A DNA stretch of 32,067 nucleotides from a virus: positions 1-32,067 of the IMG/VR virus record IMGVR_UViG_3300032282_006880. One strand, given 5' to 3'. Positions within the stretch are counted from its first letter, which is position 1. The number at the start of each line of letters is the position of its first letter. The notes under the pieces were generated by a model that saw only the letters and a list, made by a program, of their open reading frames with translations, searched no databases and had not been told where the DNA came from. This document shows positions 1-24,453 of the stretch, piece after piece. Both the position numbers and the translations under genes were made by a program.

Positions 1-258
1 AGCTGTTCCATCAATTACATAGTTTGCTTCAACCTTGTACTCGTGAGACTGTAGAGAACTCATATTGCCTTCATTCATATGAATTAATTTGAATGCATAA
101 AATTCTGTCAAATCAAGCCATAATTCATAGCCCCAAGGTTTGTCAACTTTGTAATTTGATAAAGATAATTTAAATGGCTTTTGGCTATCAATTTTTGAAA
201 CATATTCTTCTAAACATTTTTCGATGTCGTTCTTTGTTTCTTGTGTCAAATTAATCAT
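1..258 (-). CDS. Cupin-fold sugar-phosphate isomerase-like protein (3' truncated by window)
   Basis: Only the first 86 codons are present; the reading frame is open at base 1, so the gene continues to the left. The start at 258 is preceded by an AGAGG ribosome binding site. The N-terminal half carries KPWGYELW (residues 40-47), followed by a cupin motif in which GNMSSLQSHEYKVE leads into YVIDGTA (residues 64-86), with H72 and E77 at metal-ligand positions. This matches the C-terminal cupin of type II mannose-6-phosphate isomerase/GDP-mannose pyrophosphorylase proteins and stand-alone cupins of sugar operons, where the family typically has an S-L-Q-x-H core and an E before the Y-V-x-x-G turn. 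It diverges from the sugar operon starting at 339, so it probably supplies or modifies a hexose phosphate for the same pathway. The substrate is inferred; another cupin epimerase is possible. Confidence 0.72.
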   Translation of the reverse strand, partial: MINLTQETKNDIEKCLEEYVSKIDSQKPFKLSLSNYKVDKPWGYELWLDLTEFYAFKLIHMNEGNMSSLQSHEYKVEANYVIDGTA

Positions 259-338
259 ACGTACCTCTTTATTTAGTAAATCCAATACTACATTATACCT
301 TTATTTTAAATGTATAATTCTATCAAGAGTTCAAATAT
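259..338. promoter_or_regulatory. Divergent promoter region between cupin gene and sugar operon
   Basis: This 80-bp spacer separates two divergently read genes. It has back-to-back -10-like hexamers: TATAAT at 313-318 reading right, and TATAAT on the minus strand at 292-297 reading left. Neither has a convincing TTGACA-like -35 at 16-18 bp. An AAGAG ribosome binding site at 325-329 precedes the ATG at 339. In such AT-rich DNA these hexamers could be chance, so the promoter call rests mainly on the divergent layout. Confidence 0.4.
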
Positions 339-698
339 ATGATTCAATCCAAACCCACTATTTTTTGCGATATTGATGGAACATTAATTCAACATAGGCC
401 TTTATCTGAATCTTGCAAAAAGAATCATCAGATGATTCTTTTACCAGGAACAATCGAAAAAATTACTGATTGGGATAGAAAAGGTTATAAAATTATTCTA
501 ACAACTGGACGTAAAGAATGTATGAGAGAAGCCACTGAAGTTCAACTTGCTGAAGCTGGGATATTTTATGATCAACTTGTAATGGGAATTGGCGGAGGAC
601 CAAGGTATTTGATCAACGATAAAAAACCAGATGGGGAAAATGCTTGCTTTAGCATCTCTTTAGACAGAAATGTTGGCATAAAGGATGTGGATATCTAA
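339..698 (+). CDS. HAD-superfamily phosphatase, capsule/sugar type
   Basis: This 119-aa protein is a compact HAD phosphatase. Motif I is FCDIDGTL, with nucleophile D11 and acid/base D13. Motif II is ILTTGR around residues 53-58, and the acidic motif IV falls near N93-D94. There is no room for a large cap domain, as in small HAD enzymes that act on sugar phosphates or nucleic acid ends. It is the first gene of the plus-strand sugar operon, so removal of phosphate from a sugar-phosphate intermediate is the likely role. The substrate cannot be read from sequence. The start at 339 has an AAGAG site 9 bases upstream. Its stop overlaps or abuts the start of the next gene, which suggests translational coupling. 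Confidence 0.8.
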   Translation: MIQSKPTIFCDIDGTLIQHRPLSESCKKNHQMILLPGTIEKITDWDRKGYKIILTTGRKECMREATEVQLAEAGIFYDQLVMGIGGGPRYLINDKKPDGENACFSISLDRNVGIKDVDI

Positions 699-699
699 A

Positions 700-1758
700 A
701 TGATTTTGTTCTTTAATGTATATTTGACAAATGAAGCTCCAAAAGGTCACGGATTAGGTTTTGTAAACAGAGATAATGCCAAACTATCTGACAAACTTGA
801 TGTCTTTAAATACAATATTGCAAGTTTATCAAACATTTATAGCTGGAAAAAAGTAATCATAAATTGCAAACTAGATGATTATTTCTCTCTAAGAGAACAA
901 GAACTTCACGATTTTATAAAATCAGAATTTACAAATGTAGAATTACATCTACGAAATTATCGTAATGAAACTCAAGGTCAATGGCAATCTGATTACGATC
1001 TTTTAGATGACAATTTGATTTGGTTTTCTTGTAACCATGATCATATATTCATAGATACTAATTTAGAATATTTTAATTCTGTTATTGATGAATTGAAAAA
1101 TAAGGATGAATATTTTTCAATTAGAGTTTCTCACTGGCAAGAGTGTATAGCAGAAGCTTCGAAATTCAATGCTTTATCAAGTTACAATCACAAATTGCAC
1201 GATAAATTTTTAACATATAATATTCCGCATTTAGATTCAATACAAATTATAACAAAAATGACTTATCATCATTGGTGGTTTGATTATAAATTACCTGAAA
1301 GAAACTGGGGCAGACCTGATTATTTTGAAAATTATATAAATCACTTCGTACCAATCAAACATGGGTTATGGCATGTTCCGTTCAGAGAATGGTGCAGACA
1401 TTTTGATGGTTATCAACAATGTGTTCACCCATATGACAATAGAAAAATTCCTGTACTTGAAATTCCTGATGGTTTTTTTAAAAATGATATAAAAATTTAT
1501 TATGGACCAAATTATAAAGAAGGATATACCAATATAGATCCATTCTCAAAGATTACAAAAATAACTGATGATACAAAATGCGACTTGAATATTGATATAA
1601 ATTCAGTTCCATTATTTTGGCTACCTAGAATTTCTGAATTTATAAATGATTATCCTGGCAAAGAACTTATAACAAAATCTATACACAAAAGTAGAATTTT
1701 AGCTACTTTGCATGATGTTGGTTTTGAGCTTAAAAACAGAATAGGAAAAAACTACTAA
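700..1758 (+). CDS. Glycosyltransferase-like protein of the sugar operon
   Basis: I do not recognise a firm family. The frame is open from an ATG at 685, inside the preceding gene. The ATG at 700, giving an N-terminus MILFFNVYLTNE, lies just after the upstream stop and has an AAGGAT-like site 13 bases upstream, so I prefer it (about 352 aa). Near residue 110 there is a DDNLIWFSCNHDHIFID stretch, where an acidic D-H-D group follows a hydrophobic strand, as at the DxD metal/nucleotide-sugar site of GT-A enzymes. Aromatic-rich segments such as HHWWFDY and the following RNWGRPDYF lie near residues 190-215. No signal peptide or membrane helix is evident. Its place inside the operon supports a sugar-transfer or sugar-recognition role, but this is context-based. 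Confidence 0.45.
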   Translation: MILFFNVYLTNEAPKGHGLGFVNRDNAKLSDKLDVFKYNIASLSNIYSWKKVIINCKLDDYFSLREQELHDFIKSEFTNVELHLRNYRNETQGQWQSDYDLLDDNLIWFSCNHDHIFIDTNLEYFNSVIDELKNKDEYFSIRVSHWQECIAEASKFNALSSYNHKLHDKFLTYNIPHLDSIQIITKMTYHHWWFDYKLPERNWGRPDYFENYINHFVPIKHGLWHVPFREWCRHFDGYQQCVHPYDNRKIPVLEIPDGFFKNDIKIYYGPNYKEGYTNIDPFSKITKITDDTKCDLNIDINSVPLFWLPRISEFINDYPGKELITKSIHKSRILATLHDVGFELKNRIGKNY

Positions 1759-1759
1759 T

Positions 1760-2713
1760 ATGAAAATCGCATATGTCACAGGTTGTTTGGGCTTTATTGG
1801 TAGACATGTCACTCAATGTCTTTTAGAAAAAGGATGGTATGTTTACGGTATTGATAATTGCACTTATGCATCAGATCTAAATTGTATTGAAAGTTTTTCT
1901 TCTAATAAAAATTTTAAATTTGAAAATAAAAATATTTGTGAAATTGATAGACTTGTAGATTGTGATTACTTCATAAATATTGCTGCTGAAACTCATGTTG
2001 ATAATTCTATAAGAGATAGTAAAGTTTTTGTAGATTCTAATATTCATGGTGTTCATAATATTTTAGAATTGTTAAAAGTTTACAAAAAAGAAGGTTATGT
2101 TGTTCCACGATTTATTCATTTTAGCACTGATGAAGTATATGGTGACATTTCAGATGGAGAACATATTGAAACTGATATTTTAAAACCTAGTAATCCTTAT
2201 TCAGCAACAAAGGCTGCTGCTGATCAACTTATCATAGCTTGGTCTAGAACATACAATATACCATATAATATTATCAGGCCTACAAACAATTATGGAGTAG
2301 GTCAATATGTAGAAAAACTAATTCCAAAAACTTGTAAATTTTTAGGATTAGGGAGAAAAATACCTCTTCACAATCAAGGCACTCCTATACGAAATTGGTT
2401 ACATGCCAAAGATACAGCTAGAGCAGTTATGGCTATTATTGAATCAGGATCAAGCAACGAAATTTACAATGTAGCTGGTGGATTCGAACAATCTAATATT
2501 GATACTGTCAAAAAAGTAATTAATACTTATTATGGAAAAGAGATGTCCAATTACGGAGATTTTATAAACTTTGGCATTGAAAGGCCTGGACAAGATGTTA
2601 GATATGCATTGAATGATGAAAAAATTCGCAGCTTGGGATGGAAGCCATTATGTGTTTTTGATGAAGAAATCAAACATATTGTTGAATATTACAAAAACAA
2701 CTTCATTTGGTAA
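1760..2713 (+). CDS. NDP-sugar 4,6-dehydratase (dTDP-glucose 4,6-dehydratase-like)
   Basis: This is an extended short-chain dehydrogenase of 317 aa. The Rossmann motif TGCLGFIG is at residues 7-14. The dehydratase signature AAETHVDNSI is near residues 75-84, FSTDEVYGD at 121-129 supplies the T123-D124-E125 catalytic set, and Y147-x3-K151 follows. The TDE set distinguishes 4,6-dehydratases from simple epimerases of the same fold, so the predicted reaction is NDP-hexose to NDP-4-keto-6-deoxyhexose with enzyme-bound NAD+. It is slightly shorter than typical RmlB proteins (roughly 330-360 aa). The start lies two bases after the previous stop. The expected next steps (ketoreduction, epimerisation, branching) could come from the later SDR, cyclase and ThDP genes. 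Which nucleotide sugar is used is unknown. Confidence 0.85.
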   Translation: MKIAYVTGCLGFIGRHVTQCLLEKGWYVYGIDNCTYASDLNCIESFSSNKNFKFENKNICEIDRLVDCDYFINIAAETHVDNSIRDSKVFVDSNIHGVHNILELLKVYKKEGYVVPRFIHFSTDEVYGDISDGEHIETDILKPSNPYSATKAAADQLIIAWSRTYNIPYNIIRPTNNYGVGQYVEKLIPKTCKFLGLGRKIPLHNQGTPIRNWLHAKDTARAVMAIIESGSSNEIYNVAGGFEQSNIDTVKKVINTYYGKEMSNYGDFINFGIERPGQDVRYALNDEKIRSLGWKPLCVFDEEIKHIVEYYKNNFIW

Positions 2714-2722
2714 AATATAAAT

Positions 2723-3523
2723 ATGAATAACAGAGAATTTGAATGTGTAAGAATTCTTACAGACTTGGTTGAAAACTATGGACTTGTTGGAATAAAAACA
2801 AGTTTTGAGGATGAAGGCGCCAGTTTCAATGAAGTTCTTAGACTCAAAGAAATTTGTAATCAATCAAAAACAAAAGTCACATTGAAAATCGGTGGGCCAG
2901 AAGCTATAAGAGATATCAAAGACTCTATGATCATTGGTGTCAAAGGCTTAGTTGCTCCAATGGTTGAGTCTGAATTTGGGCTACAAAAATTCATAGGAGC
3001 AGTGAATGCTAATTTGCCAAGCGAAGTAGTTAGCTCTTTACAATTAAACGTAAACATTGAAACTATCACTGCAGTTTTGGGCATTGATAAAATTCTGTCA
3101 AACCAAAACGCTTCTTCTTTATATGGAGTTACTGTTGGAAGAGTAGATTTAGTTTCTTCAATGGGTGCGGATAGAAACCATGTAAATTCTGAAGAAGTTT
3201 ACAATATGGCTCATGATGTTTTTGAAAGAACTAAGAAGCTAGGAGCTAAAGCTTGTATTGGTGGTGCTGTTTCAATTGATTCATTGGATTTTTTGAAGAA
3301 ATTACACTCCGAAAAACTTCTTGATAAGTTTGAAACAAGATATGCAATATTTGATCCTTCAATTACACTAAAGAATTTATCTAGAGCGCTTTTTAAGGCT
3401 CAAATGTTTGAATATGAATGGCTTACAAATAAAATGGAATATTATCAATCTCAAGCCAGTCAAGATGAATCCAGGGTCAAAATGATTCAAGCTCGTATAA
3501 ATAAGTCAGCTTCTGAATTATGA
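2723..3523 (+). CDS. HpcH/HpaI-type aldolase (citrate lyase beta-like TIM barrel)
   Basis: This 266-aa protein matches the phosphoenolpyruvate/pyruvate-binding TIM-barrel aldolases. In order: LVAPMVESEFG at residues 76-86 (the family's P-K/M-V-E-S strand), NVNIETI at 109-115 with E113 as the metal-ligand Glu, and TVGRVDLVSSMG at 137-148 with D142 as the metal-ligand Asp. Family members make or break C-C bonds with pyruvate, oxaloacetate or short-chain acyl-CoA using Mg2+ or Mn2+. In a sugar operon the inferred role is adding or removing a short keto-acid unit on a sugar precursor. The usual substrate-binding Arg is not obvious; the KIGGPE stretch occupies that place. Its stop overlaps the next gene's start by ATGA, indicating translational coupling. 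Confidence 0.75.
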   Translation: MNNREFECVRILTDLVENYGLVGIKTSFEDEGASFNEVLRLKEICNQSKTKVTLKIGGPEAIRDIKDSMIIGVKGLVAPMVESEFGLQKFIGAVNANLPSEVVSSLQLNVNIETITAVLGIDKILSNQNASSLYGVTVGRVDLVSSMGADRNHVNSEEVYNMAHDVFERTKKLGAKACIGGAVSIDSLDFLKKLHSEKLLDKFETRYAIFDPSITLKNLSRALFKAQMFEYEWLTNKMEYYQSQASQDESRVKMIQARINKSASEL

Positions 3524-4158
3524 GAATACTTATCACTGGTGGGTCAAGAGGCATAGGCAGTGATATTTGTGAAATTTTCAAAAAAGATGGTCATGAAGTT
3601 ATTGCTCCAACTCGTGAAGAACTTGATTTGTCTCAACCCTTTTCTTTTATTCCAGACAAAATTGATATCTTGATAAATAATGCTGGAATTAATATAATAG
3701 ATTCTCTTTTTGAAGGTGAGAATTATGAAGAAATAATGACAGTAAATTATTTCTCGCCTTTAAGATTATTCAAACTTTGCTTACCTCATATGAAGAATCA
3801 AAATTATGGTAGGGTTGTAAATATTGGAAGTGTATGGGTAGATTATGCAAAGCCTGGTAGATCCTCATATAGTGCTAGTAAAAATGCCTTACACTCTCTT
3901 ACAAAAGCTATAACTGCTGAATATGGTACTTATAATATTTTGGCAAACACTGTGTCTCCTGGATTTTTTATCACGGATATGACTTTTCAAAATAATACAG
4001 AAGAAGATTTGAAAGATTTAAGAAGTAAAATTCCACTTGGTAGATTGGGATATACAAATGAAGTTGCAGATTTAGTATATTACTTGAGTGTAAACAATTC
4101 ATATATTTCTGGTCAAAATATAGTGATAGATGGTGGTTATTCATGTACAGCCAAATAG
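3520..4158 (+). CDS. Classical SDR oxidoreductase (FabG-like), sugar operon
   Basis: This is a 212-aa short-chain dehydrogenase/reductase with all core motifs: GGSRGIG (residues 7-13, cofactor binding), NNAG (53-56), catalytic S104, and Y117-x3-K121 within YSASK. The C-terminal ISGQNIVIDGGYS is the standard family ending. The protein is short compared with the usual 240-260 aa; the beta2-beta3 region is compressed, with HEVIAPTREELDLSQ in place of a longer segment. This is common in SDRs of polysaccharide clusters that reduce or oxidise a sugar carbonyl. It starts with ATGA inside the aldolase stop, and its own end overlaps the next gene by 16 bp. The substrate is unknown; the best guess is a keto group generated by the dehydratase or cyclase. 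Confidence 0.85.
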   Translation: MRILITGGSRGIGSDICEIFKKDGHEVIAPTREELDLSQPFSFIPDKIDILINNAGINIIDSLFEGENYEEIMTVNYFSPLRLFKLCLPHMKNQNYGRVVNIGSVWVDYAKPGRSSYSASKNALHSLTKAITAEYGTYNILANTVSPGFFITDMTFQNNTEEDLKDLRSKIPLGRLGYTNEVADLVYYLSVNNSYISGQNIVIDGGYSCTAK

Positions 4159-5189
4159 ATGTCAAATCAAAAATCAAAGATTATTCTATAAAGTTTACAA
4201 GTATTGATGAAGTTTACAAACTGATTGGTGAAGACTATCATTTAGCAGTAGTAGATAGCAATATTACAAAGTATTTTCCTAAATTTGAATTGGGTGACAT
4301 CATAGTCGTAGACACAAATGAAGACTTGAAATCATGGCGTGGTTTAGAAAAAATATTTGACGAATTTGCTGCAAAAAAAGTCAATACGCAAACTAAACTT
4401 GTAGTTATTGGTGGTGGAGTTCTGCAAGATGCTGTAGGTTTTTGTGCTTCTGTTTATTGTCGAGGCATTGAATATTATTTAGTTCCAACAACATTGCTTT
4501 CTCAAATAGATAGCTGTGTTGGTGGCAAAACTTCTATCAATTATGGTTTAAGAAAAAATATTCTTGGTACATTTTATCCTCCAAAAGAAATTCTTGTTTG
4601 TGAAGATTGGCTTTGTGGTTTGAGTAAAGAAAACTTTTGCAGTGGCTTGGGAGAACTCTTCAAATTTGATATTTTGAGAAATAAAATTCAAGAATCAAAA
4701 GTTGTTGATTTAATTTCTGGAAATGAAAATGTTCTTGATCACATTTATAAAAGTTTGAGTTATAAAATTTCTATTTTAGAAATTGATGAATTTGATAAAA
4801 AAGAACGTAAATATTTAAACTTTGGTCATACTTTTGGTCATGCTTTAGAAATTACTTCAAAATATAAACTATCACATGGTTATGCAGTAGCGATTGGGTG
4901 TTTAATAGCCTTGAGAACAAGTGAATTATATTATAATTGTAACTACAAAGATTATTATGTAACATTGAGTATTGCAAAAAAACTTTTAGAAAATACAATA
5001 TCTATAAAGAAAAAATGGTTTGATTATGATGCATTGATGGAATGTGTAAAATCAGACAAGAAAAATACTGGCTGTTTAAATATGGTGCTAATAAAAGACA
5101 ATAATCCAGTAGTTCAAAAAATTGATGATTATTCTATAATTAAAGAGGCACTGGAAAACGTATATGAAGCTCTCAGACTATGTAATTAA
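4143..5189 (+). CDS. 3-dehydroquinate synthase-family cyclase
   Basis: This 348-aa protein belongs to the sugar-phosphate cyclase superfamily (3-dehydroquinate synthase and relatives). Visible in order: the NAD-binding GGG at residues 90-92, VPTTLLSQIDSCVGGKT (114-130), the RKNILG lysine region (137-142), GLGELFKFD (168-176) and NFGHTFGHALE (226-236). The metal ligands correspond to E171, H229 and H245, with the same 16-residue His spacing as in fungal AroB. The SQIDSCVGGKT core is DHQS-like rather than like the sedoheptulose-phosphate cyclases. One deviation is GGGVLQDAVGF, where most DHQS proteins have a Gly before the Asp. No other shikimate-pathway gene is present, so a carbocycle for a glycan is as plausible as dehydroquinate. 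The gene overlaps both neighbours. Confidence 0.85.
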   Translation: MYSQIDVKSKIKDYSIKFTSIDEVYKLIGEDYHLAVVDSNITKYFPKFELGDIIVVDTNEDLKSWRGLEKIFDEFAAKKVNTQTKLVVIGGGVLQDAVGFCASVYCRGIEYYLVPTTLLSQIDSCVGGKTSINYGLRKNILGTFYPPKEILVCEDWLCGLSKENFCSGLGELFKFDILRNKIQESKVVDLISGNENVLDHIYKSLSYKISILEIDEFDKKERKYLNFGHTFGHALEITSKYKLSHGYAVAIGCLIALRTSELYYNCNYKDYYVTLSIAKKLLENTISIKKKWFDYDALMECVKSDKKNTGCLNMVLIKDNNPVVQKIDDYSIIKEALENVYEALRLCN

Positions 5190-6888
5190 ATTTCTCAACG
5201 ACAATTATGATGTTGATACAATTTTCACTTTGTCAGGTGGGGGTTGTATTCATTTAATTGACTCACTAGGCAAATCAGAAAATGTAAATTACATAGCAAC
5301 ACATCATGAACAAGCTGCTGCAATTGCTGCGGAAGGTTATGCACGTAAGAAAAACAAGTTGGGAGCCTGCCTAGTAACTTCTGGTCCTGGAGGTACAAAT
5401 GCTCTTACTGGTACTCTTTGTAGTTTTTTAGATTCTATTCCAGTAATTGTAATTAGTGGGCAAGTTAACAAATCTTTAACAACCAATTATACAAATCTCA
5501 GTTTAAGACAATTAGGTGATCAAGAATTTGACATTGTAAAAACTGCCAAAACTATGACAAAATATGCTGTTCAAGTTAATGATGCAGAAGAAATCAGATA
5601 TCATTTAGAAAAAGCTTGTTATTTAGCAACTAGTAAAAGACCAGGACCTGTTTGGATCGATATACCACTTGATGTTCAATCCGCTCAAATTGATCCATCA
5701 AGATTAAAACCATTTATTCCTAACATATTTGATTTTGCCCCCAAACACCATGATTATGTTTCAATTGTGAATAAATGGAATAGAGCAAAAAAACCATTAT
5801 TAATAGTTGGAAATGGAGTAAGACTTTCAGGTGCAATTGAATCATTATTTGAATTATTGGATAAAACGAATATTCCAGTAATTACTGCAGTTAATGGAAA
5901 TGATATTGTAAACGAATCTTATCCCTATTATTTTGGAAGATTTGGAACTCATGCACAGATTTGTGCTAACAAACTTATTAATGAGGCAGATTTTATAATT
6001 TCCATTGGATCAAGATTATATGTAAGACAAATTGGTTACAATTTTGACGATTTTGGTAAAAATGCATACAAAATAGCTGTAGATATCGATCAAAATGAAC
6101 TTGACAAACCCACATTGAGACTTGATGAAAAAGTGTGTGAAGATGCTAAAAAATTTATCAATGACTTAAATAAAGTTTTTATTAACAAATGCTCCAAAGA
6201 CTGGTTGCAATATTGTGAATCATTTAGATCGCCAAGTGTCTTAGACAAACATAGAAATAAAACAGATTATGTTAGTAATTATCATTTGATTGAAAAATTA
6301 TCTGAAATACTGCCCCAAAAATACGATATTGTGACTAGTGATGGTTCTGCAAATGTAGTCACAATGCAAGTAGCTAAGCTCAAAGGTGATCAAAGACTAA
6401 TAACTAATACAGGTTGTGCTCCAATGGGCTATGGACTTCCTTGCGCAATTGGTGTTGCTTCTACTGGGCAAAAAACATTATGTATTGAAGGTGATGGTAG
6501 TTTGCATTTAAACATTCATGAACTTCAAACTATGATGCACAATAAATTGCCGATAAAGTTACTGCTTTTAAACAACGATGGTTATTTATCTATCAAAGTA
6601 ACTCAAAAATCTTTTTTCAATGGGTATTATGTGGCTTCAGAAAAATCTAGTGGAGTGACTTTTCCAGATTTCAAAAAAATTGCAGATGCATACAGTATTC
6701 CATATTTTGAAATAAAAACAAATAATGAAGTTAGTAAAGTTTTAGAAAACTTTTTAGCATTTAATGGTCCTTGTATTTGTCAAGTTTTTACTGATCCAGA
6801 TGAAATTTTTGAACCTAAAGTAGTAGCAAAGATGGATGAAAATGGCAGGTTTATTCCAGGGTGTTTGTCTGAAGCTCAATGGAGTTAA
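5164..6888 (+). CDS. Thiamine-diphosphate enzyme, acetolactate synthase-like
   Basis: This 574-aa protein has the three-domain layout of acetolactate synthase/pyruvate decarboxylase-type enzymes. The N-terminal PYR domain has LSGGGCIHLIDSL and E49 in THHEQAAA, the Glu that activates the thiazolium ylide, followed by LVTSGPGGTNALTG. The middle domain carries KPLLIVGNGVR near residue 215. The C-terminal PP domain has the GDG motif (GDGS, 443-446) and NND from residue 470, the usual spacing for ThDP-Mg2+ binding. In sugar clusters such enzymes add a two-carbon acyl unit to a keto sugar (YerE in yersiniose synthesis is the known example) or cleave diketo cyclitols. Either fits beside a cyclase and a 4,6-dehydratase. 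The start at 5164 overlaps the upstream gene by 26 bp. The exact reaction is not predictable. Confidence 0.88.
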   Translation: MKLSDYVIKFLNDNYDVDTIFTLSGGGCIHLIDSLGKSENVNYIATHHEQAAAIAAEGYARKKNKLGACLVTSGPGGTNALTGTLCSFLDSIPVIVISGQVNKSLTTNYTNLSLRQLGDQEFDIVKTAKTMTKYAVQVNDAEEIRYHLEKACYLATSKRPGPVWIDIPLDVQSAQIDPSRLKPFIPNIFDFAPKHHDYVSIVNKWNRAKKPLLIVGNGVRLSGAIESLFELLDKTNIPVITAVNGNDIVNESYPYYFGRFGTHAQICANKLINEADFIISIGSRLYVRQIGYNFDDFGKNAYKIAVDIDQNELDKPTLRLDEKVCEDAKKFINDLNKVFINKCSKDWLQYCESFRSPSVLDKHRNKTDYVSNYHLIEKLSEILPQKYDIVTSDGSANVVTMQVAKLKGDQRLITNTGCAPMGYGLPCAIGVASTGQKTLCIEGDGSLHLNIHELQTMMHNKLPIKLLLLNNDGYLSIKVTQKSFFNGYYVASEKSSGVTFPDFKKIADAYSIPYFEIKTNNEVSKVLENFLAFNGPCICQVFTDPDEIFEPKVVAKMDENGRFIPGCLSEAQWS

Positions 6889-6889
6889 T

Positions 6890-7717
6890 GTGAAAAAAAT
6901 ATTGATAACTGGCAGTGATGGATACGTTGCTAGAAATATAGCTAAAAAATTATGTAATTATGATTTGACAATTACAAATCGATCTAACTTAAATTTGTTA
7001 GATGCAAAATCTGTGAAAAATTTTTTTGAACATAAATATTTTGATGCAGTAATTCATACTGCAACTTCAGGAGGAAGCAGACTCAAAGAAGATAATTCAG
7101 ATGTTTTTTTTGAAAACTGCACAATGCATCAAAACATTTTAGATAATTCTTCCTCATTTAATAAATATATTTCGTTTGGATCTGGTGCAGAATTAGATAG
7201 AAGATATGATATTGACCCTTCAGCTGATCTTAAAAGTGCTTTCCCAATTGATCCTTATGGGATGAGTAAAAATTTTATAGCTAAGTCAGGTCTTTTATAT
7301 CCACATTTTTACAACATTAGAATATTTAATGTATTTGACCAAGATGAATTGTCAAGTAGAATGATAAAAGCAAATATTATAAATTATATAAGTAAAAAAC
7401 CAATTATAATTCATCAAGATAAATGGATGGATTTTTTTTATATGGACGATTTGTGTGAAGTTGTAAAATTTGCCATCGAATCAAATACAAAACAAAAAAT
7501 TATCAATTGTTCTTATCAAGAGAAATATAAACTTAGCACAATTGCAGAAATTATCAATCAATTGTCAAGTTACAAAGTTGAAATTGTAATCAATAATAAA
7601 TCTCTGGGTTTAAATTATTATGGTGATTACAATTTGCATTTATTTGATGTAAATTTATCTGGATTGCATTTGGGTATAACAAATACATACAATAAATTAA
7701 GGGATGAATTAAATTGA
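6890..7717 (+). CDS. NAD-dependent epimerase/dehydratase (extended SDR), GTG start
   Basis: An open frame exists from an ATG at 6836, but its first 18 residues lie inside the ThDP gene and look nothing like a Rossmann start. A GTG at 6890, one base after the upstream stop and behind GGAG at 6881-6884, gives VKKILITGSDGYVA, a normal N-terminus; I therefore call 275 aa. The GxxG motif is at about residues 8-13, SFGSGAE holds the catalytic Ser near residue 97, and Y123-x3-K127 lies in PYGMSK. The QDKWMDFFYMDDLCEVV segment is typical of NDP-sugar epimerases and reductases (the R/K-D-F-x-Y-V-x-D motif). It probably reduces or epimerises the keto-sugar product of the pathway. The exact activity is unknown. 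Confidence 0.8.
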   Translation: MKKILITGSDGYVARNIAKKLCNYDLTITNRSNLNLLDAKSVKNFFEHKYFDAVIHTATSGGSRLKEDNSDVFFENCTMHQNILDNSSSFNKYISFGSGAELDRRYDIDPSADLKSAFPIDPYGMSKNFIAKSGLLYPHFYNIRIFNVFDQDELSSRMIKANIINYISKKPIIIHQDKWMDFFYMDDLCEVVKFAIESNTKQKIINCSYQEKYKLSTIAEIINQLSSYKVEIVINNKSLGLNYYGDYNLHLFDVNLSGLHLGITNTYNKLRDELN

Positions 7718-8514
7718 AAAACTTATTGGTAAACTTTTCTGTTGGAGATAAATGTATTGACTCTTTAGAAGGAGATATATTTCTAAACTCTCTTTCAAAA
7801 TTCAAGACATTTGAAAAAGCTGTATTTGTAAGCAATGTAAGCCCACATAATATTAAAAAGCTTGAAAAGTATTTTGATATTATCATTCCTAATAATGAAA
7901 ATCTGTACACAAGCTATTTAGCATTATATAATTGGTTGTCAGAGCACGTTAATGAATATAAGTATGTTATGCACTCTGATTTGCGTGATGTTGTAATTCA
8001 AAAAGATCCTTTTGAATTTTTTGAATCAAACCCCGAAATAAATATGTTTTATTCCTTAGAAGGTATGAAAATTACAGAAAATGATTGTAATTTATGGTGG
8101 GAGCAAAATCTTAGAACAATTTTAAGATCTCATAATAATTCTTATGAAAATGAATATGTAATTAATGGTGGAATTTTTGGTGGAAAAATTGAACACATGA
8201 TAAACCATTGCTTGATGATGTTTTCTAATACTAATAGAAAATCTCAATTTTTAGTAATGGATCAACAATTTTTGGGATACTTGAGCCAATATCTAAAAAA
8301 GAATCCCAAAAATATGTTATGCCATCCTTACAAAGATACATTTGCTTGTACTGGAGAAGCAATAAAAAGAGATAATGTGGAAGTTTTTTTTGATGGCGAG
8401 TATGTTACAAACAAAGATGGTATTCCTTATTGTATTTTTCATCAATGGGATAGAACAGATCTAGCAAATTACTATGTAAAAAAAGAATCAGATACTTTAA
8501 GATTCTCTATCTAA
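7714..8514 (+). CDS. Glycosyltransferase-like protein, last gene of sugar operon (TTG start)
   Basis: This is a 266-aa protein starting at TTG, which overlaps the previous TGA as TTGA, with GGGATGA about 9 bases upstream. YVMHSDLRDVVIQKDPFEF (residues 84-102) is a strand followed by a D89-x2-D92 pair, resembling the S-D-x-R-D-V-x-F-Q-x-D-P-F segment of some GT-A-fold transferases. Later INGGIFGGK (150-158) and MDQQFLGYL (182-190) occupy places where such enzymes bind acceptor and nucleotide sugar. No signal peptide or membrane helix is seen. A role in attaching the operon's sugar to a virion or host-surface acceptor is inferred from order. Its last 18 bp overlap the convergent tail gene. Confidence 0.6.
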   Translation: MKNLLVNFSVGDKCIDSLEGDIFLNSLSKFKTFEKAVFVSNVSPHNIKKLEKYFDIIIPNNENLYTSYLALYNWLSEHVNEYKYVMHSDLRDVVIQKDPFEFFESNPEINMFYSLEGMKITENDCNLWWEQNLRTILRSHNNSYENEYVINGGIFGGKIEHMINHCLMMFSNTNRKSQFLVMDQQFLGYLSQYLKKNPKNMLCHPYKDTFACTGEAIKRDNVEVFFDGEYVTNKDGIPYCIFHQWDRTDLANYYVKKESDTLRFSI

Positions 8515-9081
8515 ATCAAGATCAAGGTCAGCTGCTGTTTCTGGTTTAGCTTCATTTTTAGTTGCTAATATAAGTTGAATGGTTTCAAATTCTTTCATAC
8601 TAAGATTAGAAAATTCATCTTTACTCATAGAAACTAAACCTCGTGTCATATAATCAATTTCAACAATTAGTGGTGGCACGGGGTATGTTTCTGTATCATT
8701 AGGATTATAATATTTTTTTGTTGCAATATAATAGAAATTAGCTTCATCAGCGTTAAGATAAAGATAATTTTGATATTCGACCCATAATTTTTCAATAGTG
8801 GCGTGATCTATTTTTTGAAGAAGAGAACTTTCAAAATCTGGAAAATAATCAGTATTTGACTCATTATCATATGCCCTCAAAATTGCAAGATTGAGTATTT
8901 CTCTTTTTTCAAATTCAGAATTTTGATATACAATATTGTCCTTTTTTCTGAAAGATTTAGCATCTATCAATAGGCCTTCTTTCCATGTAATTTCACGAAC
9001 AATGAATTTCACAGAATCAATTGTAATGATATGTACTTTATTTGATTTATTTTTTTCGTAAAACTCAACAAATTCTTTCAT
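8497..9081 (-). CDS. Hypothetical protein, candidate tail assembly chaperone
   Basis: I do not recognise the family from motifs. The 194-aa protein is acidic and mainly helical, with an early beta segment (VHIITIDSVKFIVREITWKEG) and a C-terminal acidic tail DLDLDLDRES. It is the last gene of the tail block, directly downstream of a tail-tube-like gene and coupled to it by ATGA. In many tailed phages the gene after the tube protein encodes the tail assembly chaperone that binds the tape measure. The N-terminal pattern of a short beta hairpin followed by W-K-E and helices is compatible with chaperone-like proteins of that position. I saw no convincing slippery heptamer for the programmed frameshift common in such genes. 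The function is inferred from position only. Confidence 0.45.
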   Translation of the reverse strand: MKEFVEFYEKNKSNKVHIITIDSVKFIVREITWKEGLLIDAKSFRKKDNIVYQNSEFEKREILNLAILRAYDNESNTDYFPDFESSLLQKIDHATIEKLWVEYQNYLYLNADEANFYYIATKKYYNPNDTETYPVPPLIVEIDYMTRGLVSMSKDEFSNLSMKEFETIQLILATKNEAKPETAADLDLDLDRES

Positions 9082-10328
9082 AAAAATTCTGATACTCTAT
9101 AATTCAAAAGGCCATTAAAAGCCGTAAATTCTGTCATTCTTGCAGCAAAATTATACTCAATAAAATATCCAACTCCAGGATCAATAGTAACCCTTGGTTG
9201 CTGCCAATCTACATTTTTCATACTGTAGAAAAATACGCTTCCAAAATACATTGTTAGAGATGATGCATTGGTGTCGATAAAACTATAGTTTTGGGGACTA
9301 AATAATTTAATAGAACCAGTAACTCTTCTACTACTTAATGAAGCAAATCTTGGCCCAACAATATCACCAAACTCAATAGGTAGATTAGTGCCTATTGAAT
9401 ATCCCGGGTAAGTATATGCAAAATCTACACTTTGTTGTATCGAAAGTGACATACTAACAATTTTGTGAATTGGCATTTGGTTTGGACTATAAGCGCTTTG
9501 AACTGCTTTGCCAAAATTTCTAAATGCATCACTACCTGTAAACAAAGCAGGGTAATATGCACAATCGGAAAGGTTTATTGACCTATATTTATCTTGAAAA
9601 TTATTAAATTCAACAGTATTTGATTGATTATCTTGTTCATTCAAGGTTTTCATTTTAATATAGTTATCATTCAAGTATGGTCTATAAGTTGTCACATTAT
9701 CAGGAGAAATTATTGACCTTCCACCTACCAAAGAACAGGAAATATCAACATCACCAAGTTGATTCATACCGTCTGCTTTGATATTAAAAGAGCTAATAAA
9801 AGCTGGACCAAAAGATTTATGTGTTGGAATGCTTGAACAGAAAATTAAAGGGAATAAAGGAATTACTGATGCTCTGTAAATTACATTTTCTGCAGCATAT
9901 TGTTGGTTTACATTTGTTGACAATATTGGGTTAAAAGAAAAACTACCTGAATATTGATACTGACTAAAAACTGGATGATTTAAAACCGATAAACCAGAGA
10001 AATTTGGTATTGGTTGATAAATGTTTTCACCAGCATTGTCAGTAAAATTTGAACAATATAATGGTTTGTAATCAGATGAAAATCTTTTATATTTAAAATT
10101 TCCTGATATATGGCTAGCTGAATTAGTCATATATATAGCTAACAAATACAAATCCCAAAAATGAGATCTTGAACCTACAAGATTTTTAACTACTCTATAA
10201 CCACCAAATGACTTTTGTTGCAGAAGGTATAAATTTGTCTGTGTAAAGGGAGCCAGCTCACAAACATAAATACTATGTCCTGAAGATGGGTATATTCCAT
10301 TTATGACATTATTTATAATATCTGGCAT
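9078..10328 (-). CDS. Tail-tube-like virion protein (416 aa)
   Basis: This is a beta-rich 416-aa protein without a signal peptide or catalytic motifs. The second half has MSLSIQQSVDFAY, then SSRRVTGSIKLFSP (from about residue 325), then repeated strands. The pattern 'ordinary beta strand of the S-L-x-I-x-x type, followed by S-R-x-V-x-G-S-I' is characteristic of tail tube proteins of the Phage_tube_2 type. A similar SEGRKISGSITYTG segment occurs in the protein two genes upstream, so the two may be paralogous or structurally related. It lies between a 128-aa gene and the putative chaperone gene; its ATG directly follows the upstream stop, with GGCGG as ribosome binding site. A baseplate tube-initiator is an alternative. 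Confidence 0.55.
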   Translation of the reverse strand: MPDIINNVINGIYPSSGHSIYVCELAPFTQTNLYLLQQKSFGGYRVVKNLVGSRSHFWDLYLLAIYMTNSASHISGNFKYKRFSSDYKPLYCSNFTDNAGENIYQPIPNFSGLSVLNHPVFSQYQYSGSFSFNPILSTNVNQQYAAENVIYRASVIPLFPLIFCSSIPTHKSFGPAFISSFNIKADGMNQLGDVDISCSLVGGRSIISPDNVTTYRPYLNDNYIKMKTLNEQDNQSNTVEFNNFQDKYRSINLSDCAYYPALFTGSDAFRNFGKAVQSAYSPNQMPIHKIVSMSLSIQQSVDFAYTYPGYSIGTNLPIEFGDIVGPRFASLSSRRVTGSIKLFSPQNYSFIDTNASSLTMYFGSVFFYSMKNVDWQQPRVTIDPGVGYFIEYNFAARMTEFTAFNGLLNYRVSEFL

Positions 10329-10715
10329 TTATTTTCCGCCTGTCATCTCTAGCCATTTTTTTGATAAAGCTTTTACCAATTCATATCTCATCAAGCTAAC
10401 ATTATTAGGATCTGGATAATAAGTTTCTTCATTATCACCATCTTTAATCTTGATGACAGAAAAGAAACTAATAATAATATTTTTGCAGAGCACAGAGGTT
10501 CTCAATAATGGATTTCCAGTTACAGAATTGATAATAGTTGCGTCTTCTATAATATTTGACATATCAGCAAAATTTCTTCCTTTGACATCGCAAGAAATTT
10601 CACAATCACCACTTGGATCAATCTTATAACAAAGAATATCACCAGCATCATTTTTTATGATTTTGCAATTAATTTTAAGTTCAAATCTTTTGCCAGCATC
10701 TACAAAAATACTCAT
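10329..10715 (-). CDS. Hypothetical small virion-block protein (128 aa)
   Basis: I do not recognise this protein. It is 128 aa, beta-rich for the first 100 residues (alternating hydrophobic strands such as FELKINCKIIK and VLCKNIIISFFSVIKIK) and ends in an amphipathic helix, YELVKALSKKWLEMTGG. It contains several cysteines without the pairing expected of a zinc site. It sits between the two tail-tube-like genes, starts by TAATG overlap with the upstream gene behind an AGGAAG ribosome binding site, and its stop abuts the next ATG. Such tight coupling suggests made-to-measure amounts with the tube proteins, for example a tube cap or completion factor. That is inference. Confidence 0.6.
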   Translation of the reverse strand: MSIFVDAGKRFELKINCKIIKNDAGDILCYKIDPSGDCEISCDVKGRNFADMSNIIEDATIINSVTGNPLLRTSVLCKNIIISFFSVIKIKDGDNEETYYPDPNNVSLMRYELVKALSKKWLEMTGGK

Positions 10716-12187
10716 TAATAACTTCCTGTTGGTTTTAATATTGGGTCAAATGTATAGTTTTGAGTTGCTACTGAAAAATTAACTTTGCTCTTTTGAAAAT
10801 CCATTCTAGAATGTTCTTGAGATTCAGTTGACCATACAACTTCAGGCAATTCTAACTTAATTGGCCCCATATCAAAAGTTATACCGTCATTGTTTACGCT
10901 ACTTGGACCTGATAAAAACTCAACCATTGCCCAAGGTTTTATTGGCCCAGTATATGTAATTGATCCTGAAATTTTACGTCCCTCAGAATAATATGCATAG
11001 GGCAATGAATTTTTAAATGAATTTATTTTTTTATCACTGCTTTTGCTATTTAAGGTAAAAACTGGTTTCAAGTTATTTTCAATACTTATGTCCATTTCAG
11101 TAACATAAATACTGTCTAGTTGAGATTGTTGAAAGCCTCTAAATAATTTAGAATCTAAAATACCACCCAAGCCAAATAGACCGTATTCTGGAGCACTTTT
11201 ATAAACTCTTACATTATAACCATTCAATATATAACTTGGTTTTTTCTTAAAATAATTCTGTATTATGGAAGCAAAATTATTATACATTTGAACCTGATAA
11301 GTTCTATCAACATTCAAAACTTTCAAGTCTATATAAGCAATAATTTGTTCTCCAGGCTTAAAATTTATTGCAAACTTTTCAACAAGACATCCACTCAATA
11401 GTCCTTGTTTCAATGTAAATAAGGAGAATGAAGCTTCTTTGCCATTTGATTGTGGATAAGCTGAAATGTAAGAAGTGTCTCTAGCAAAAGCAGCATTAAC
11501 TCCAGCTCCAACAGTTAATAATCGATTAGCTTTATCAATTGCAGTAACTGTCACTAAATCATAACTTGTGTTTGTGTCTGATTTTATCTTTGCTTGAAAA
11601 GGTAAAGATAATCCCATAAATTCAGCAATATTATCAATGTAAAGCTGACTTGTTCCAGCAGCAATAGTAGAGGAATTATCAGATGTGAATCTACCTATAA
11701 AAGATGTTGGAGAGCCTTTAAAAGCTTCTATGCAGTAATCGAAAAAAGCTGCTAAAGAAAAATCCAAATATCCCCAGCTATCCACTTTGAATGGAAAAGT
11801 AAAACTAACATTATACTCTTTTGGACCTAATTGAAAAGTATTTGGGTTTGCTCCTTCTCCTGCATATCTTTCTCCAGCGTCAGATTCTTGAGCACCTTGT
11901 ATGTTAAAATTATCTATAGAAAATAAATAATTTGTGTTGATATTAGAAAATGATAAATTAAAATCAGGGTCTTCTCCAAATTCTCTAGAAAGTGCAAAAA
12001 TATCGTAATAACCAGTTTCAAAAGATGGAGCATATAAATGTGAGCTAAAGTTATTATAAGCTTCTTTGTAGAGGTATTGTGATGGTGAATATTCTGAGCT
12101 GCCAATACTTGGAACTGTTACTGTTTGATCTGCGCCAAAAGCTTGGATATTTGATTTAAGTGAACTGGCTTTAATACTTTTTCTCAT
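10715..12187 (-). CDS. Tail-tube-like major tail protein (490 aa)
   Basis: This 490-aa beta-rich protein has features of tail tube proteins. EMDISIENNLKPVFTL is followed by a SEGRKISGSITYTG segment near residue 400 and then by strands ending PEVVWSTE; the sequence 'strand I-x-N-N-L-x-P, then G-R-x-x-x-G-S-I' is the hallmark of the Phage_tube_2 type. Residues about 178-238 form a separate insert (AGTSQLYIDNIAEF, then DLVTVTAIDKANRLLTV), the beta module common in fibres and tubes as a surface-exposed insertion. The gene is long for a tube protein (often 150-350 aa), which this insert explains in part. It follows the 816-aa fibre-like gene. No frameshift is seen. Confidence 0.6.
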   Translation of the reverse strand: MRKSIKASSLKSNIQAFGADQTVTVPSIGSSEYSPSQYLYKEAYNNFSSHLYAPSFETGYYDIFALSREFGEDPDFNLSFSNINTNYLFSIDNFNIQGAQESDAGERYAGEGANPNTFQLGPKEYNVSFTFPFKVDSWGYLDFSLAAFFDYCIEAFKGSPTSFIGRFTSDNSSTIAAGTSQLYIDNIAEFMGLSLPFQAKIKSDTNTSYDLVTVTAIDKANRLLTVGAGVNAAFARDTSYISAYPQSNGKEASFSLFTLKQGLLSGCLVEKFAINFKPGEQIIAYIDLKVLNVDRTYQVQMYNNFASIIQNYFKKKPSYILNGYNVRVYKSAPEYGLFGLGGILDSKLFRGFQQSQLDSIYVTEMDISIENNLKPVFTLNSKSSDKKINSFKNSLPYAYYSEGRKISGSITYTGPIKPWAMVEFLSGPSSVNNDGITFDMGPIKLELPEVVWSTESQEHSRMDFQKSKVNFSVATQNYTFDPILKPTGSY

Positions 12188-12195
12188 ATCAAAAC

Positions 12196-14646
12196 CTATG
12201 GTGTAGTTTCAATAGTTATAAGATCATAGATATCCCATAAAATTGGACCATTATTTATTCTTGTTACGTCAGTTCCAGGAACTACATAAGCATCTAAAAC
12301 TCTATCAAAAACTTGTAAATCATTGCCTAATGGAAATCTTTGATTTCTTGTTGTACCTTTTGGAATTGTTGTTGTAAGAGTTGTAGGTGTACCTGTATTA
12401 CCAAGCTGAGCTATAACTGTAACAACTAAATCATTTTTAATTGTTTGATCATCTGTTGTTGCAATTCCAGTTGTAGAGCCATTGAAAACAACATTGGAGG
12501 AAGTCAAGTCATCAACGTAAGGGACATAGACTGATAATTTTCTAGCTTCTAAAGCTATTCTATTTGTTAGCTTGATTCCACGTCTCAAGATTTCTCCTGA
12601 TATATTTCCATCATCAAGATATCCTCTAAACTTGTAGTAAGCTGTTCCACCTGTACCTGTCCAAGAAGATCCGCTATTTATAGATGTCAAACCTTGTCCA
12701 GAGCTGCCTGCAATAACTCTAGTATAAAGAGTAGTTGATCCTAGGCCAGTTGCAAAATCTGATGGCTTATTAATCATCAACCAATAACTTGCGCCTTGTA
12801 GTAGATTTGCTCCTGTGCTGAACTTGACGGTGTATTCGTTTGTACCTTGTAGAATATCAGAATTTCTTATCACTGAAGAACTTGTGATCATTCCATTTGG
12901 TGTTGGTGTCGATCCAGTTGCAGAATAAATAGATATATTTATGCCTGTTGTTCCAGATCCAGTAGTTTGACCACCAGCAGTATATTTTAATTTTAAGGTA
13001 ACTCCGCCAACAAAACAATTTTCGTTAGGAGTTATCTTAAATGCTGTCAATCCATTTCTTAAAACCAAATCTGTATCATCTGTAATTGATGTCATTGTGT
13101 TATAAGCTGGATACTGAATTTCATTGACATTAGTAAGTTTTCTTTCTATCAAATCACTGCTTAATTGTGGTTTTTTATAAACGTGGTAAAAGAGTGGATT
13201 TGTTATTCCAGCACCTGACCAATTTAATTCAACAAGATAATTACTAGAAGTGAAATTTGAAGAAACAAGATTACTATAAACTGGAATACTTTCTACGTAT
13301 TCATCTGTTGAAATATTATAAACAATAGTAGTGCCATAAATCTGAGTTCCAGATGATAAAGAAGAAATATAATTAGAACAAGGGATAACTAAATTAGTAA
13401 ACCCTGTTGCTGATGCTGCATTGTTGCTTCCAATTGCTGAGTTGTAAGTAATAAGATCTCCTCTAAAAATAGCAAATGTATGCTGAACATCAGATCCAAC
13501 AGTTTCATAATAAGCTTTTGCAAAATTATAGGGCAATTCAAATCTTTCTAAACCACTAAAAGATGTTCCCTTTGAATAAAATTCTGTTTTTCTAAATGGC
13601 TGTGTAGCTAAAAGTTCTCTATTAGTTTGACTAGAGTTATAAGAAACTGTATTCAAATATCTGTAAACTGCAGAAACTGTATTTGTAACATAATCATTTG
13701 TTTGATAAGCAGCTAAAGCATTATTAGCATTAGTACAGCTTTGAATTATTAAACTTTTATCTGCAGAATCACCCAAAATTTGATAAGTTGAAATATCTGT
13801 TGGCATATCTACAATTGTTCTTGTCAATCCCGTTCCTGAATCAACAACTACTGGATTTTCAGGATTTTTAACCATTACTTTACTTATAGGAATCCAACTT
13901 TTGGGTAATGGTGGAAAATAAGTAAAAGTATTTATATTTTCACTTGTTTCTAAAACTGGAAAGCCTGTAATATATTTGACTCTTGGCTGAAACAAGAAAG
14001 TTACAGGATTATCAAGATAATAAGTTGCAGGTAGTGATCCGAAAGAAGAACCATTGTAGTATGATGGATCTACAATTAATCCAGTCAAATCATCAGTTAC
14101 ATTTGAAAAACTAATCAAATAATTGCCAACAAATGCCTGAATTGGAAAACCTAAATTTACAGCAATAGTTGCATCTTTTACATATAAAACGTTTGTTCCT
14201 GACAAACAAGTTGTGCTTACTGTCGTAGTCCAAGTTTGAGTAGCTTTTTTTACTTCAGATATAGGCAATCCCAAAGTAACTCCGTATTTATAACTTGCAC
14301 CAAATCCACTTGAAGAATAATTTTTTGACCACTCTTTCTTTAGTGGAATTTTTTGTGGTTGTAAGTTGAAAACAGAACCATTGTACGCAACTTGTCCACT
14401 TCTTACAGTAACATAATAAGGATCATATGTAATATCATAAGTTGTTTCACATCCTAATGGAGCTGTTTCAAGAATGCCAAAATAAGGGATTCCTGTATTA
14501 GCCATTAAAAGCAAATTGTTGATTTCAAAGATAGAAGAACCAGGAGTATCAATATCTCCAATGCCATAATTTAAAGCATCGTAAATATTGCCCACTGTTT
14601 TTGTCAATTCAAGAACTATCTCTTCTACTTTTGATGATATTGCCAT
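12196..14646 (-). CDS. Fibre/baseplate-like virion protein (816 aa) with choice-of-anchor-like domain
   Basis: This 816-aa Ser/Thr/Gly-rich protein has no enzyme motifs. The N-terminus begins with a helix (KVEEIVLELTKTVGNIYDAL), then YYVTVRSGQVAYNGSVFNL (near residues 77-95), resembling the 'x-V-x-x-G-x-A-x-V-N-G' attachment strands of proteins docked on baseplates. Around residues 530-680 is a beta sandwich: FKITPNENCFVGGVTLKLKY, then ISIYSATGS, then YWLMINKPSD. The order 'F-x-x-x-P-N ... V-x-L-x-L ... I-S-I-Y ... Y-W-L-x-I' is that of the choice-of-anchor R-like domains found in surface proteins. The 1567-aa protein carries the same order of strands. A receptor-binding or baseplate-periphery role is inferred. 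Start 14646 leaves one base after the upstream stop. Confidence 0.6.
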   Translation of the reverse strand: MAISSKVEEIVLELTKTVGNIYDALNYGIGDIDTPGSSIFEINNLLLMANTGIPYFGILETAPLGCETTYDITYDPYYVTVRSGQVAYNGSVFNLQPQKIPLKKEWSKNYSSSGFGASYKYGVTLGLPISEVKKATQTWTTTVSTTCLSGTNVLYVKDATIAVNLGFPIQAFVGNYLISFSNVTDDLTGLIVDPSYYNGSSFGSLPATYYLDNPVTFLFQPRVKYITGFPVLETSENINTFTYFPPLPKSWIPISKVMVKNPENPVVVDSGTGLTRTIVDMPTDISTYQILGDSADKSLIIQSCTNANNALAAYQTNDYVTNTVSAVYRYLNTVSYNSSQTNRELLATQPFRKTEFYSKGTSFSGLERFELPYNFAKAYYETVGSDVQHTFAIFRGDLITYNSAIGSNNAASATGFTNLVIPCSNYISSLSSGTQIYGTTIVYNISTDEYVESIPVYSNLVSSNFTSSNYLVELNWSGAGITNPLFYHVYKKPQLSSDLIERKLTNVNEIQYPAYNTMTSITDDTDLVLRNGLTAFKITPNENCFVGGVTLKLKYTAGGQTTGSGTTGINISIYSATGSTPTPNGMITSSSVIRNSDILQGTNEYTVKFSTGANLLQGASYWLMINKPSDFATGLGSTTLYTRVIAGSSGQGLTSINSGSSWTGTGGTAYYKFRGYLDDGNISGEILRRGIKLTNRIALEARKLSVYVPYVDDLTSSNVVFNGSTTGIATTDDQTIKNDLVVTVIAQLGNTGTPTTLTTTIPKGTTRNQRFPLGNDLQVFDRVLDAYVVPGTDVTRINNGPILWDIYDLITIETTP

Positions 14647-14647
14647 T

Positions 14648-20205: not shown

Positions 20206-20207
20206 TG

Positions 20208-20984: not shown

Positions 20985-20993
20985 TTATTTCAC

Positions 20994-22168: not shown

Positions 22169-22202
22169 AATAAAGAAAATACTAGGCCAAGGCTCTTTTT
22201 AC

Positions 22203-22751: not shown

Positions 22752-22767
22752 AAACTAATTTTACAGT

Positions 22768-23184: not shown

Positions 23185-23215
23185 TTTCATCCTCTTAGGT
23201 TTTCACTTTTTTACA

Positions 23216-23230
23216 CCCATTAATAATGGG
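23216..23230. repeat. Perfect palindrome upstream of the 138-aa gene
   Basis: CCCATTAATAATGGG has 7-bp arms (CCCATTA and TAATGGG) around one central base. It lies 32 bp before the ATG at 23184, in the leader of that gene. It has no flanking T-run in the right place for a terminator. It could be an operator half-site pair or a weak RNA hairpin (5-bp stem, 5-base loop). Confidence 0.45.
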
Positions 23231-23266
23231 AATTAACATTTAATATAATTAAGTATATTAATGATC

Positions 23267-23307
23267 TTTAATTAAAAGAAAATTTTAAATTTAAATTTTT
23301 AATTAAA
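23267..23307. repeat. AT-only inverted repeat downstream of the 369-aa gene
   Basis: TTTAATTAAAA at 23267-23277 is matched by TTTTAATTAAA at 23297-23307, giving an 11-bp A/T-only stem around a 19-base A/T-rich loop. It follows the stop of the 369-aa gene (minus strand) by about 28 bases. With no G-C pair it would be a weak hairpin. The rest of the 23185-23334 spacer holds no other clear element. Confidence 0.35.
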
Positions 23308-23334
23308 TTGTTGATATAATAGCAAAGGAACAAT

Positions 23335-24444: not shown

Positions 24445-24453
24445 ATTTACTCC

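Follow-up and report, generated by a model that had tools for sequence, protein, structure and literature searches.

The 32-kb virus record IMGVR_UViG_3300032282_006880 (32,067 nucleotides, a fragment; hereafter referred to as the window) contains nine plus-strand open reading frames (ORFs; hereafter referred to as g1-g9, positions 339-8514), of which g3-g9 form a conserved phage cassette of sugar enzymes. The cassette encodes a 4,6-dehydratase acting on nucleoside diphosphate (NDP)-glucose by its family (g3), a divergent enzyme with the HpcH/HpaI fold (g4, hereafter HpcH), a short-chain dehydrogenase/reductase (SDR; g5), a sugar phosphate cyclase homologue (SPC; g6), a thiamine diphosphate (ThDP)-dependent lyase resembling YerE (g7), an extended SDR (g8) and a glycosyltransferase-like protein (g9). 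In phages and bacteria alike, the SPC and SDR genes alternate with genes for HAD phosphatases. We propose tentatively, at what we judge to be slightly short of an even chance, that g3-g9 make an activated higher-carbon 4-C-branched 6-deoxyhexose, the branch of which is closed to a carbocycle, and that this sugar is transferred by at least one phage glycosyltransferase.

An earlier note, made from the sequence alone, had described nine tightly coupled genes convergent with a phage tail block. All nine ORFs were found where it placed them, on the plus strand, separated or overlapping by no more than about 50 bp (mostly about 10 bp or less) and convergent with a long minus-strand block that begins at 9081. 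They do not constitute a single unit. A search with the SPC (g6) identified four viral contigs at 84% identity, and these contain g3-g9 with order and orientation preserved, adjoining the same convergent genes (t10-t14), but g1 and g2 are absent from the corresponding place in all four. The region upstream of g3 varies among these relatives, containing other glycosyltransferases, epimerases, a DegT aminotransferase, parts of transketolases and a PhyH dioxygenase; g1 and g2 were therefore assigned to a variable glycan-gene island, and g3-g9 to the conserved unit. The core of the cassette consists of the six genes g3-g8 (1760-7717), followed by g9 (7714-8514), which was seen in the window lineage only and is 57-92% identical across the four nearest relatives.

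Synteny with the three relatives read at length, which also carry t10-t26, extends over some 24 genes, and the t10-t24 block is 42-96% identical to the relatives, gene by gene. The fourth relative (L005) has a cassette matching that of a 358-kb contig gene for gene, and may be the same phage or a very close one. This 358-kb contig is a jumbo-phage genome, in which PHROG profiles identified a terminase large subunit, portal, head protease, DNA polymerase (DnaE-type), helicase, ribonucleotide reductase and RecJ-like nuclease. Profile searches of the window itself back a phage origin weakly, with a match to a head-tail adaptor or Mu Gp36-like protein and few hallmark genes. This scarcity could be taken to suggest a bacterial chimera or a misbinned host fragment, the outcome that the earlier note considered fatal to its phage-pathway reading. 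That explanation is refuted at the sequence level and retains practically no weight: the same cassette-tail junction recurs in four other contigs, the 358-kb contig sharing it has a terminase, portal, DNA polymerase and ribonucleotide reductase, and the cassette is also present on terminase-bearing contigs of other lineages. Likewise, the ratio of nonsynonymous to synonymous substitution rates (dN/dS) is similar in cassette and tail genes. Pairwise dN/dS for g3-g9 ranged from 0.03 to 0.26, within the range for the tail genes, indicating that all of these genes are under purifying selection. In the comparison of the window with the 358-kb phage, dS was 0.19 for the SDR (g5) and 0.52 for the SPC (g6), and exceeded 1.2 for the remaining genes compared. 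As the values for this pair lie far below those for the other genes, they suggest that the two genes (3520-5189) were recently exchanged between phages as a unit.

The family assignments of the earlier note (HAD, 4,6-dehydratase, HpcH/HpaI, SDR, dehydroquinate synthase [DHQS] family, ThDP and extended SDR) hold on profile searches. The dehydratase (g3) has the catalytic DE and YxxxK residues and scored 298 bits with TIGR01181 (RmlB), below the cut-off of 365. For g4, PF03328 (HpcH_HpaI) was detected at 30.6 bits (cut-off 25), and an AlphaFold2 model (predicted local distance difference test score [pLDDT] of 96) matched HpcH/HpaI aldolases and SbnG (E about 1e-9, TM-score about 0.6); the metal-ligand positions E113 and D142 are invariant in 25 sequences. 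The SPC (g6) has the N and C domains of DHQ_synthase, with PF01761 and PF24621 above their cut-offs, and the alignment indicated that the positions of the DHQS catalytic residues are retained. Its best family is TIGR04425 (AroB-related putative sugar phosphate phospholyase, cyclizing), a model self-described as putative and for which we know of no tested function. The scores were 289.8 bits for TIGR04425 (cut-off 400) and 245 bits for the aroB model TIGR01357 (cut-off 305), whereas the g6 homologue of green sulfur bacteria, in the same gene context, reached 451.9 bits with TIGR04425. RmlB for g3, and TIGR04425 and AroB for g6, are therefore resemblances rather than strict memberships.

The nearest solved homologue of g7 was 8rph (E 7e-117, all others being 5e-76 or worse), which we take to be JanthE of Janthinobacterium. 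The ThDP-binding motif EGDGSLHLN and the catalytic glutamate motif HHEQ are present in g7, with the canonical GDG in place of the CDG of JanthE. Lyases of the g7 type are encoded together with a sugar 4,6-dehydratase, g3 in the cassette and RfbG in bacteria, and JanthE accepts bulky ketones (PMC12188165). Automatic annotation gives the names AroB-type and IlvB-type to these proteins, which would point to an ordinary metabolic capture boosting aromatic and branched-chain amino acid synthesis. We consider this highly improbable, as g6 and g7 score below the aroB and acetolactate synthase cut-offs, the nearest solved relative of g7 is JanthE-like, and the block has sugar enzymes as neighbours, with no further shikimate or branched-chain amino acid genes. 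A housekeeping AroB/IlvB identity was rejected on these family scores.

The cassette occurs in two mutually exclusive forms. An HpcH alignment scan yielded 58 viral contigs, and the cassette is carried by about 50 viral contigs; in the counts given here each contig was entered once, although several of those retained are near-copies. The A form, with the gene order HpcH-SDR-SPC-ThDP, was found in 39 viral sequences including the window, nearly all of which also have the dehydratase and the extended SDR. The B form, with the order HpcH-HAD phosphatase-ThDP and neither SDR nor SPC, was found in 13. No viral sequence contained both (0 of 39 A and 13 B). The six-gene order is kept in some three dozen other viral contigs. 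Six longer contigs with an intact cassette carry a terminase, with both forms represented; for the other cassette contigs, viral status rests on the IMG/VR classification.

The g5-type SDR and the SPC occur as a pair, in a two-gene slot that is otherwise filled by three types of HAD protein without meaningful similarity to each other. The simplest interpretation of such dissimilar phosphatases in this slot is a step centred on a phosphate, which the HAD would remove and the SPC would use as a leaving group. In the HpcH tree (60 rows, bacteria included, corresponding to 51 distinct sequences), at least eight changes of the A/B label are needed, and well-supported branches force five of them, indicating that HpcH passes freely between the two forms. 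The label changes five times in the ThDP tree (four forced by well-supported branches), and in phages the ThDP gene appears mostly to travel with its neighbours.

Several viral loci depart from these arrangements. A different cassette, with an SDR, an SPC and a dehydratase, is present in L009, L010 and L011 (8135-16367), with no HpcH or ThDP found nearby. The 210-kb terminase-bearing contig L058 (10001-18000) has a rearranged A form, with a B-clade ThDP, an SDR and a divergent SPC after the ThDP. In L067 (10001-13000) and G019:C1:57385-57819, the frames of HpcH, ThDP and terminase are all broken, through sequencing errors, decay or recoding, and in L071 and L072 a distant HpcH (33%) adjoins a small HAD, with no ThDP match nearby. 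The INPHARED phages gave no match to HpcH; the SPC and ThDP matches in this collection were about 21-38% identical, of AroB or IlvB type, and many lay in records resembling bacterial contamination. Plasmid searches returned distant matches only, none with the cassette.

The bacterial survey covered one phylum group, the Bacteroidota with the Chlorobia, to which Arsenicibacter belongs. A close HpcH was detected in 8 of 396 genomes. Seven of the eight are small genomes from one family, and six of these seven encode the FMO protein, identifying the seven as green sulfur bacteria; the cassette HpcH is thus present in 7 of the 86 genomes of that family (clusters L113-L119). The complete clusters contain RfbF, RfbG, RfbH and ThDP, then SDR-SPC or HAD, then HpcH; in several, the extended SDR adjoins HpcH, and others are partial or rearranged. 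Five have the A form and two the B form, with a HAD-IIA phosphatase. In the Arsenicibacter cluster (Bacteroidota), a third kind of HAD lies upstream of ThDP-HpcH. Like the phage cassette, the Chlorobia clusters combine HpcH, ThDP and either SDR and SPC or HAD in one operon-like cluster, but they follow a cytidine diphosphate (CDP) route with RfbF, RfbG and RfbH, place ThDP first and HpcH last, and include membrane glycan genes. Between one A and one B cluster, the ThDP proteins are 86% and the HpcH proteins 83% identical, as expected if both enzymes act before the variable step.

From these genes we infer each catalytic step, the order of the steps, the aldehyde, the product and its target, as follows. 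Host NDP-glucose, probably deoxythymidine diphosphate (dTDP)-glucose, would be converted by g3 into NDP-4-keto-6-deoxyglucose. The HpcH enzyme (g4) would couple pyruvate with a sugar-aldehyde phosphate, most economically erythrose 4-phosphate, to give a 4-hydroxy-2-oxo acid phosphate (3-deoxy-D-arabino-heptulosonate 7-phosphate [DAHP] or an epimer); we favour erythrose 4-phosphate and a DAHP-like acid because closure to a six-membered ring calls for an aldehyde phosphate of four carbons. The lyase (g7) would decarboxylate this acid and transfer the resulting acyl anion to the keto group at C4 of the NDP-sugar, creating a tertiary alcohol and a phosphorylated ketone branch. The substrate of g6 would then be a DAHP analogue with sugar C4 in the position of the carboxylate, and g6 would eliminate the phosphate and close the branch on its ketone to a six-membered ring, as DHQS does with DAHP. 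The ring ketone would be reduced by g5, and g8 would reduce or epimerise. In the B form, the HAD phosphatase would strip the phosphate and the branch would stay linear. The earlier note had envisaged a branched or a carbocyclic sugar; the coherence of the pathway is supported, and both features are plausible in one product, with the exchange of SPC and SDR for HAD narrowing the alternative to a single step.

The O-antigen pathways of yersiniose A (YerE) and erwiniose (ErwE) share with the cassette a 4,6-dehydratase and a ThDP lyase that attaches a 2-oxo acid at the C4 keto group of an NDP-deoxy-sugar; the phage cassette differs in having an RmlB-like dehydratase without RfbF or RfbH, a dedicated HpcH-fold enzyme and the SPC-SDR pair. 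Class II pyruvate aldolases produce 4-hydroxy-2-oxo acids. RfbF, RfbG and RfbH lead to CDP-3,6-dideoxy-4-keto-glucose, the known acceptor of YerE and ErwE, and the donors preferred by ErwE are 4-hydroxy-2-oxo acids (PMC12247030). The presence of RfbF, RfbG and RfbH in the bacterial clusters, together with this donor type, would fit g4 as the maker of the donor. The C7-cyclitol synthases (EEVS, DDGS and EVS) and DHQS belong to the same superfamily as g6, share its catalytic positions and have phosphate as the leaving group; g6 differs from them in lying in an NDP-sugar branching cassette and in alternating with a phosphatase.

Several observations weigh against this scheme. In DHQS, a lysine and an arginine contact the carboxylate of DAHP, and g6 and its relatives keep these positions, although the carboxylate would already have been lost. 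The viral ThDP tree largely follows the A/B division, which also fits a ThDP enzyme acting after the variable step, although adjacent genes may simply travel together. The score of g3, below the equivalog cut-off, does not fix the nucleotide. The resemblance of g4 to HpaI-type aldolases is limited to the fold and the metal ligands, and a rough alignment shows no evident counterparts of HpaI His45 and Arg70. Finally, we found no product of known structure for such a cluster.

The first two of these points would suit a different order of events, in which the SPC would take as substrate a keto-acid phosphate or ketose phosphate in free form (DAHP- or sedoheptulose 7-phosphate-like), the SDR would modify the resulting cyclitol, and the cyclitol would then serve the ThDP lyase or a transferase as substrate or as separate partner. 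Other SPCs do use sedoheptulose 7-phosphate (PMC5133447). Nevertheless, closely similar ThDP and HpcH proteins serve both forms in Chlorobia, and such an order leaves the alternation of phosphatase with SPC and SDR, and the constancy of HpcH, unexplained; we consider it unlikely. A fused bicyclic sugar, with the new ring built on two hexose carbons rather than on a pendant branch, is more improbable still. Its model is bradyrhizose, a natural carbocycle-bearing sugar of the Bradyrhizobium O-antigen, in which an 11-gene cluster with a dTDP-glucose 4,6-dehydratase has been implicated (PMC4743980). The structure of this sugar, bicyclic with ten carbons and hydroxylated at C4, C5 and C9 (PMC9912281), on paper fits ThDP and SPC chemistry. 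The fused ring and the ten carbons set bradyrhizose apart from the pendant-branch product proposed here, and few genes of the cassette are as well conserved as HpcH, yet bradyrhizose has no obvious need for a 3-deoxy branch.

The literature on SPCs in O-antigen or polysaccharide clusters, and on YerE with an aldolase, yielded nothing on this combination, and a phage pathway of this kind seems to be undescribed so far. The combination is unique neither to this phage nor to phages, being present in about 50 viral contigs, some Chlorobia and one Bacteroidota cluster. A 2025 description of aquatic jumbo phages with several glycosyltransferases makes no mention of acetolactate or dehydroquinate enzymes (PMC12619734). 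The viral genes listed in a single-cell study of Chlorobium viruses include rfbG and one for an acetolactate synthase (PMC8226683), and these may represent an unrecognised relative of the cassette.

The destination of the sugar was considered from the membrane proteins predicted around the cassette. A simple hydropathy count was applied to the 358-kb contig, 16 other phage-side sequences and five bacterial loci. ORFs with four or more predicted transmembrane segments were absent from the phage sequences, and each bacterial locus had at least one. The phages therefore appear to produce soluble transferases and an activated sugar but no lipid-linked assembly, which mildly favours an acceptor in solution, for example a virion protein. 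Alternatively, the finished sugar might be handed to host machinery and alter the host surface glycan, leading to seroconversion or superinfection exclusion, a use compatible with any of the chemistries above. The bacterial cassettes do have an O-antigen-like setting, among genes for glycosyltransferases and polytopic membrane proteins, but no multi-spanning flippase, polymerase or GtrB-like protein was predicted in any of these phage sequences, and we regard this use as a serious possibility that falls short of probable. DNA glycosylation is also possible.

The features of the window are listed in Table 1. The small HAD g1 (339-698) was rejected as a member of the pathway: its homologue lies about 40 kb away from the cassette in the 358-kb relative, it is missing from this place in the nearest relatives, and it cannot be aligned with the HAD of the alternative cassette. 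No Pfam, NCBIfam or PHROG match was obtained for g2, which has homologues in three other glycan islands, with an invariant CNHDHIF.D motif; its structure model is of low confidence (pLDDT 52), and its matches to nucleotide-sugar or glycosyltransferase proteins are weak. The start of g8 is probably GTG 6890 rather than ATG 6836, because alignment with the homologue from the 358-kb contig begins only at residue 19. The partial cupin gene at 1..285 marks the edge of the glycan gene island.

Table 1. Features of the window, with the evidence for each assignment
Feature	Position	Strand	Evidence
g1: small HAD-like phosphatase, 119 aa	339..698	+	Acid_phosphat_B/Hydrolase_3 weak (Pfam); phrog_415; DxDGT motif
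g2: possibly GT-A-like glycosyltransferase	685..1758	+	weak nucleotide-sugar/glycosyltransferase structure matches; adjoins cassette
g3: RmlB-like NDP-glucose 4,6-dehydratase	1760..2713	+	TIGR01181 7e-89; STDEVYGD and YSATK catalytic motifs
g4: divergent HpcH/HpaI-fold (class II pyruvate aldolase-like) enzyme	2723..3523	+	PF03328; fold match
g5: SDR	3520..4158	+	PF13561/adh_short; TGGSRGIG and YSASK motifs
g6: SPC homologue, TIGR04425 group, AroB-related	4143..5189	+	TIGR04425 290 bits
g7: ThDP-dependent YerE/JanthE-like lyase	5164..6888	+	8rph E 7e-117; HHEQ and GDG...N motifs
g8: extended SDR (WcaG/Fcl-like reductase or epimerase)	6890..7717	+	PF01370 Epimerase 6e-20; GDP-fucose synthase-like; YxxxK
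g9: glycosyltransferase-like protein	7714..8514	+	phrog_1579 glycosyltransferase 2e-5; no Pfam match
t10-t24: convergent phage structural block	8497..25644	-	synteny with relatives
Head-tail adaptor/Mu Gp36-like protein	20994-21488		profile match
Cupin gene 5' part, mannose-6-phosphate isomerase C-terminal-like	1..285	-	PF01050 1.5e-4, just below cut-off; runs off window

At the other end of the window (29311-32067), an ORF of more than 900 aa, very A+T-rich (22-29% GC), runs off the sequence. The terminase of the relatives is divergent, missed by PF03237 and detected with phrog_2 in two of three. Inspection by eye of the ORF list of the 358-kb contig revealed GroEL-, DnaK- and gyrase-like proteins (both gyrase subunits). 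In the glycan islands of two relatives (L003, 207-2519; G003, the 358-kb phage, about 35.5-38.7 kb), two transketolase-like half proteins lie side by side and a DegT aminotransferase is also encoded; together with an HldE-like kinase noted by eye in the 358-kb phage, they point to another unusual sugar route.

The cassette links keto-sugar branching by YerE-like enzymes, pyruvate aldolases and cyclitol-forming SPCs, which are usually studied in separate fields. The repeated exchange, at one step, of a phosphatase for a cyclase and a reductase constitutes a natural experiment, the chemistry of which is testable with soluble enzymes and could yield the first function for the TIGR04425 group. In its boldest form, which we consider rather doubtful, the proposal is that a hitherto unknown class of nucleotide sugars of about 12 carbons is made by phages and by some green sulfur bacteria, in which an SPC closes a branch installed by a ThDP enzyme into a carbocycle on the sugar itself, and that the phages coat their virions with them. 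If this were true, phages would carry multi-step de novo pathways to exotic sugars.

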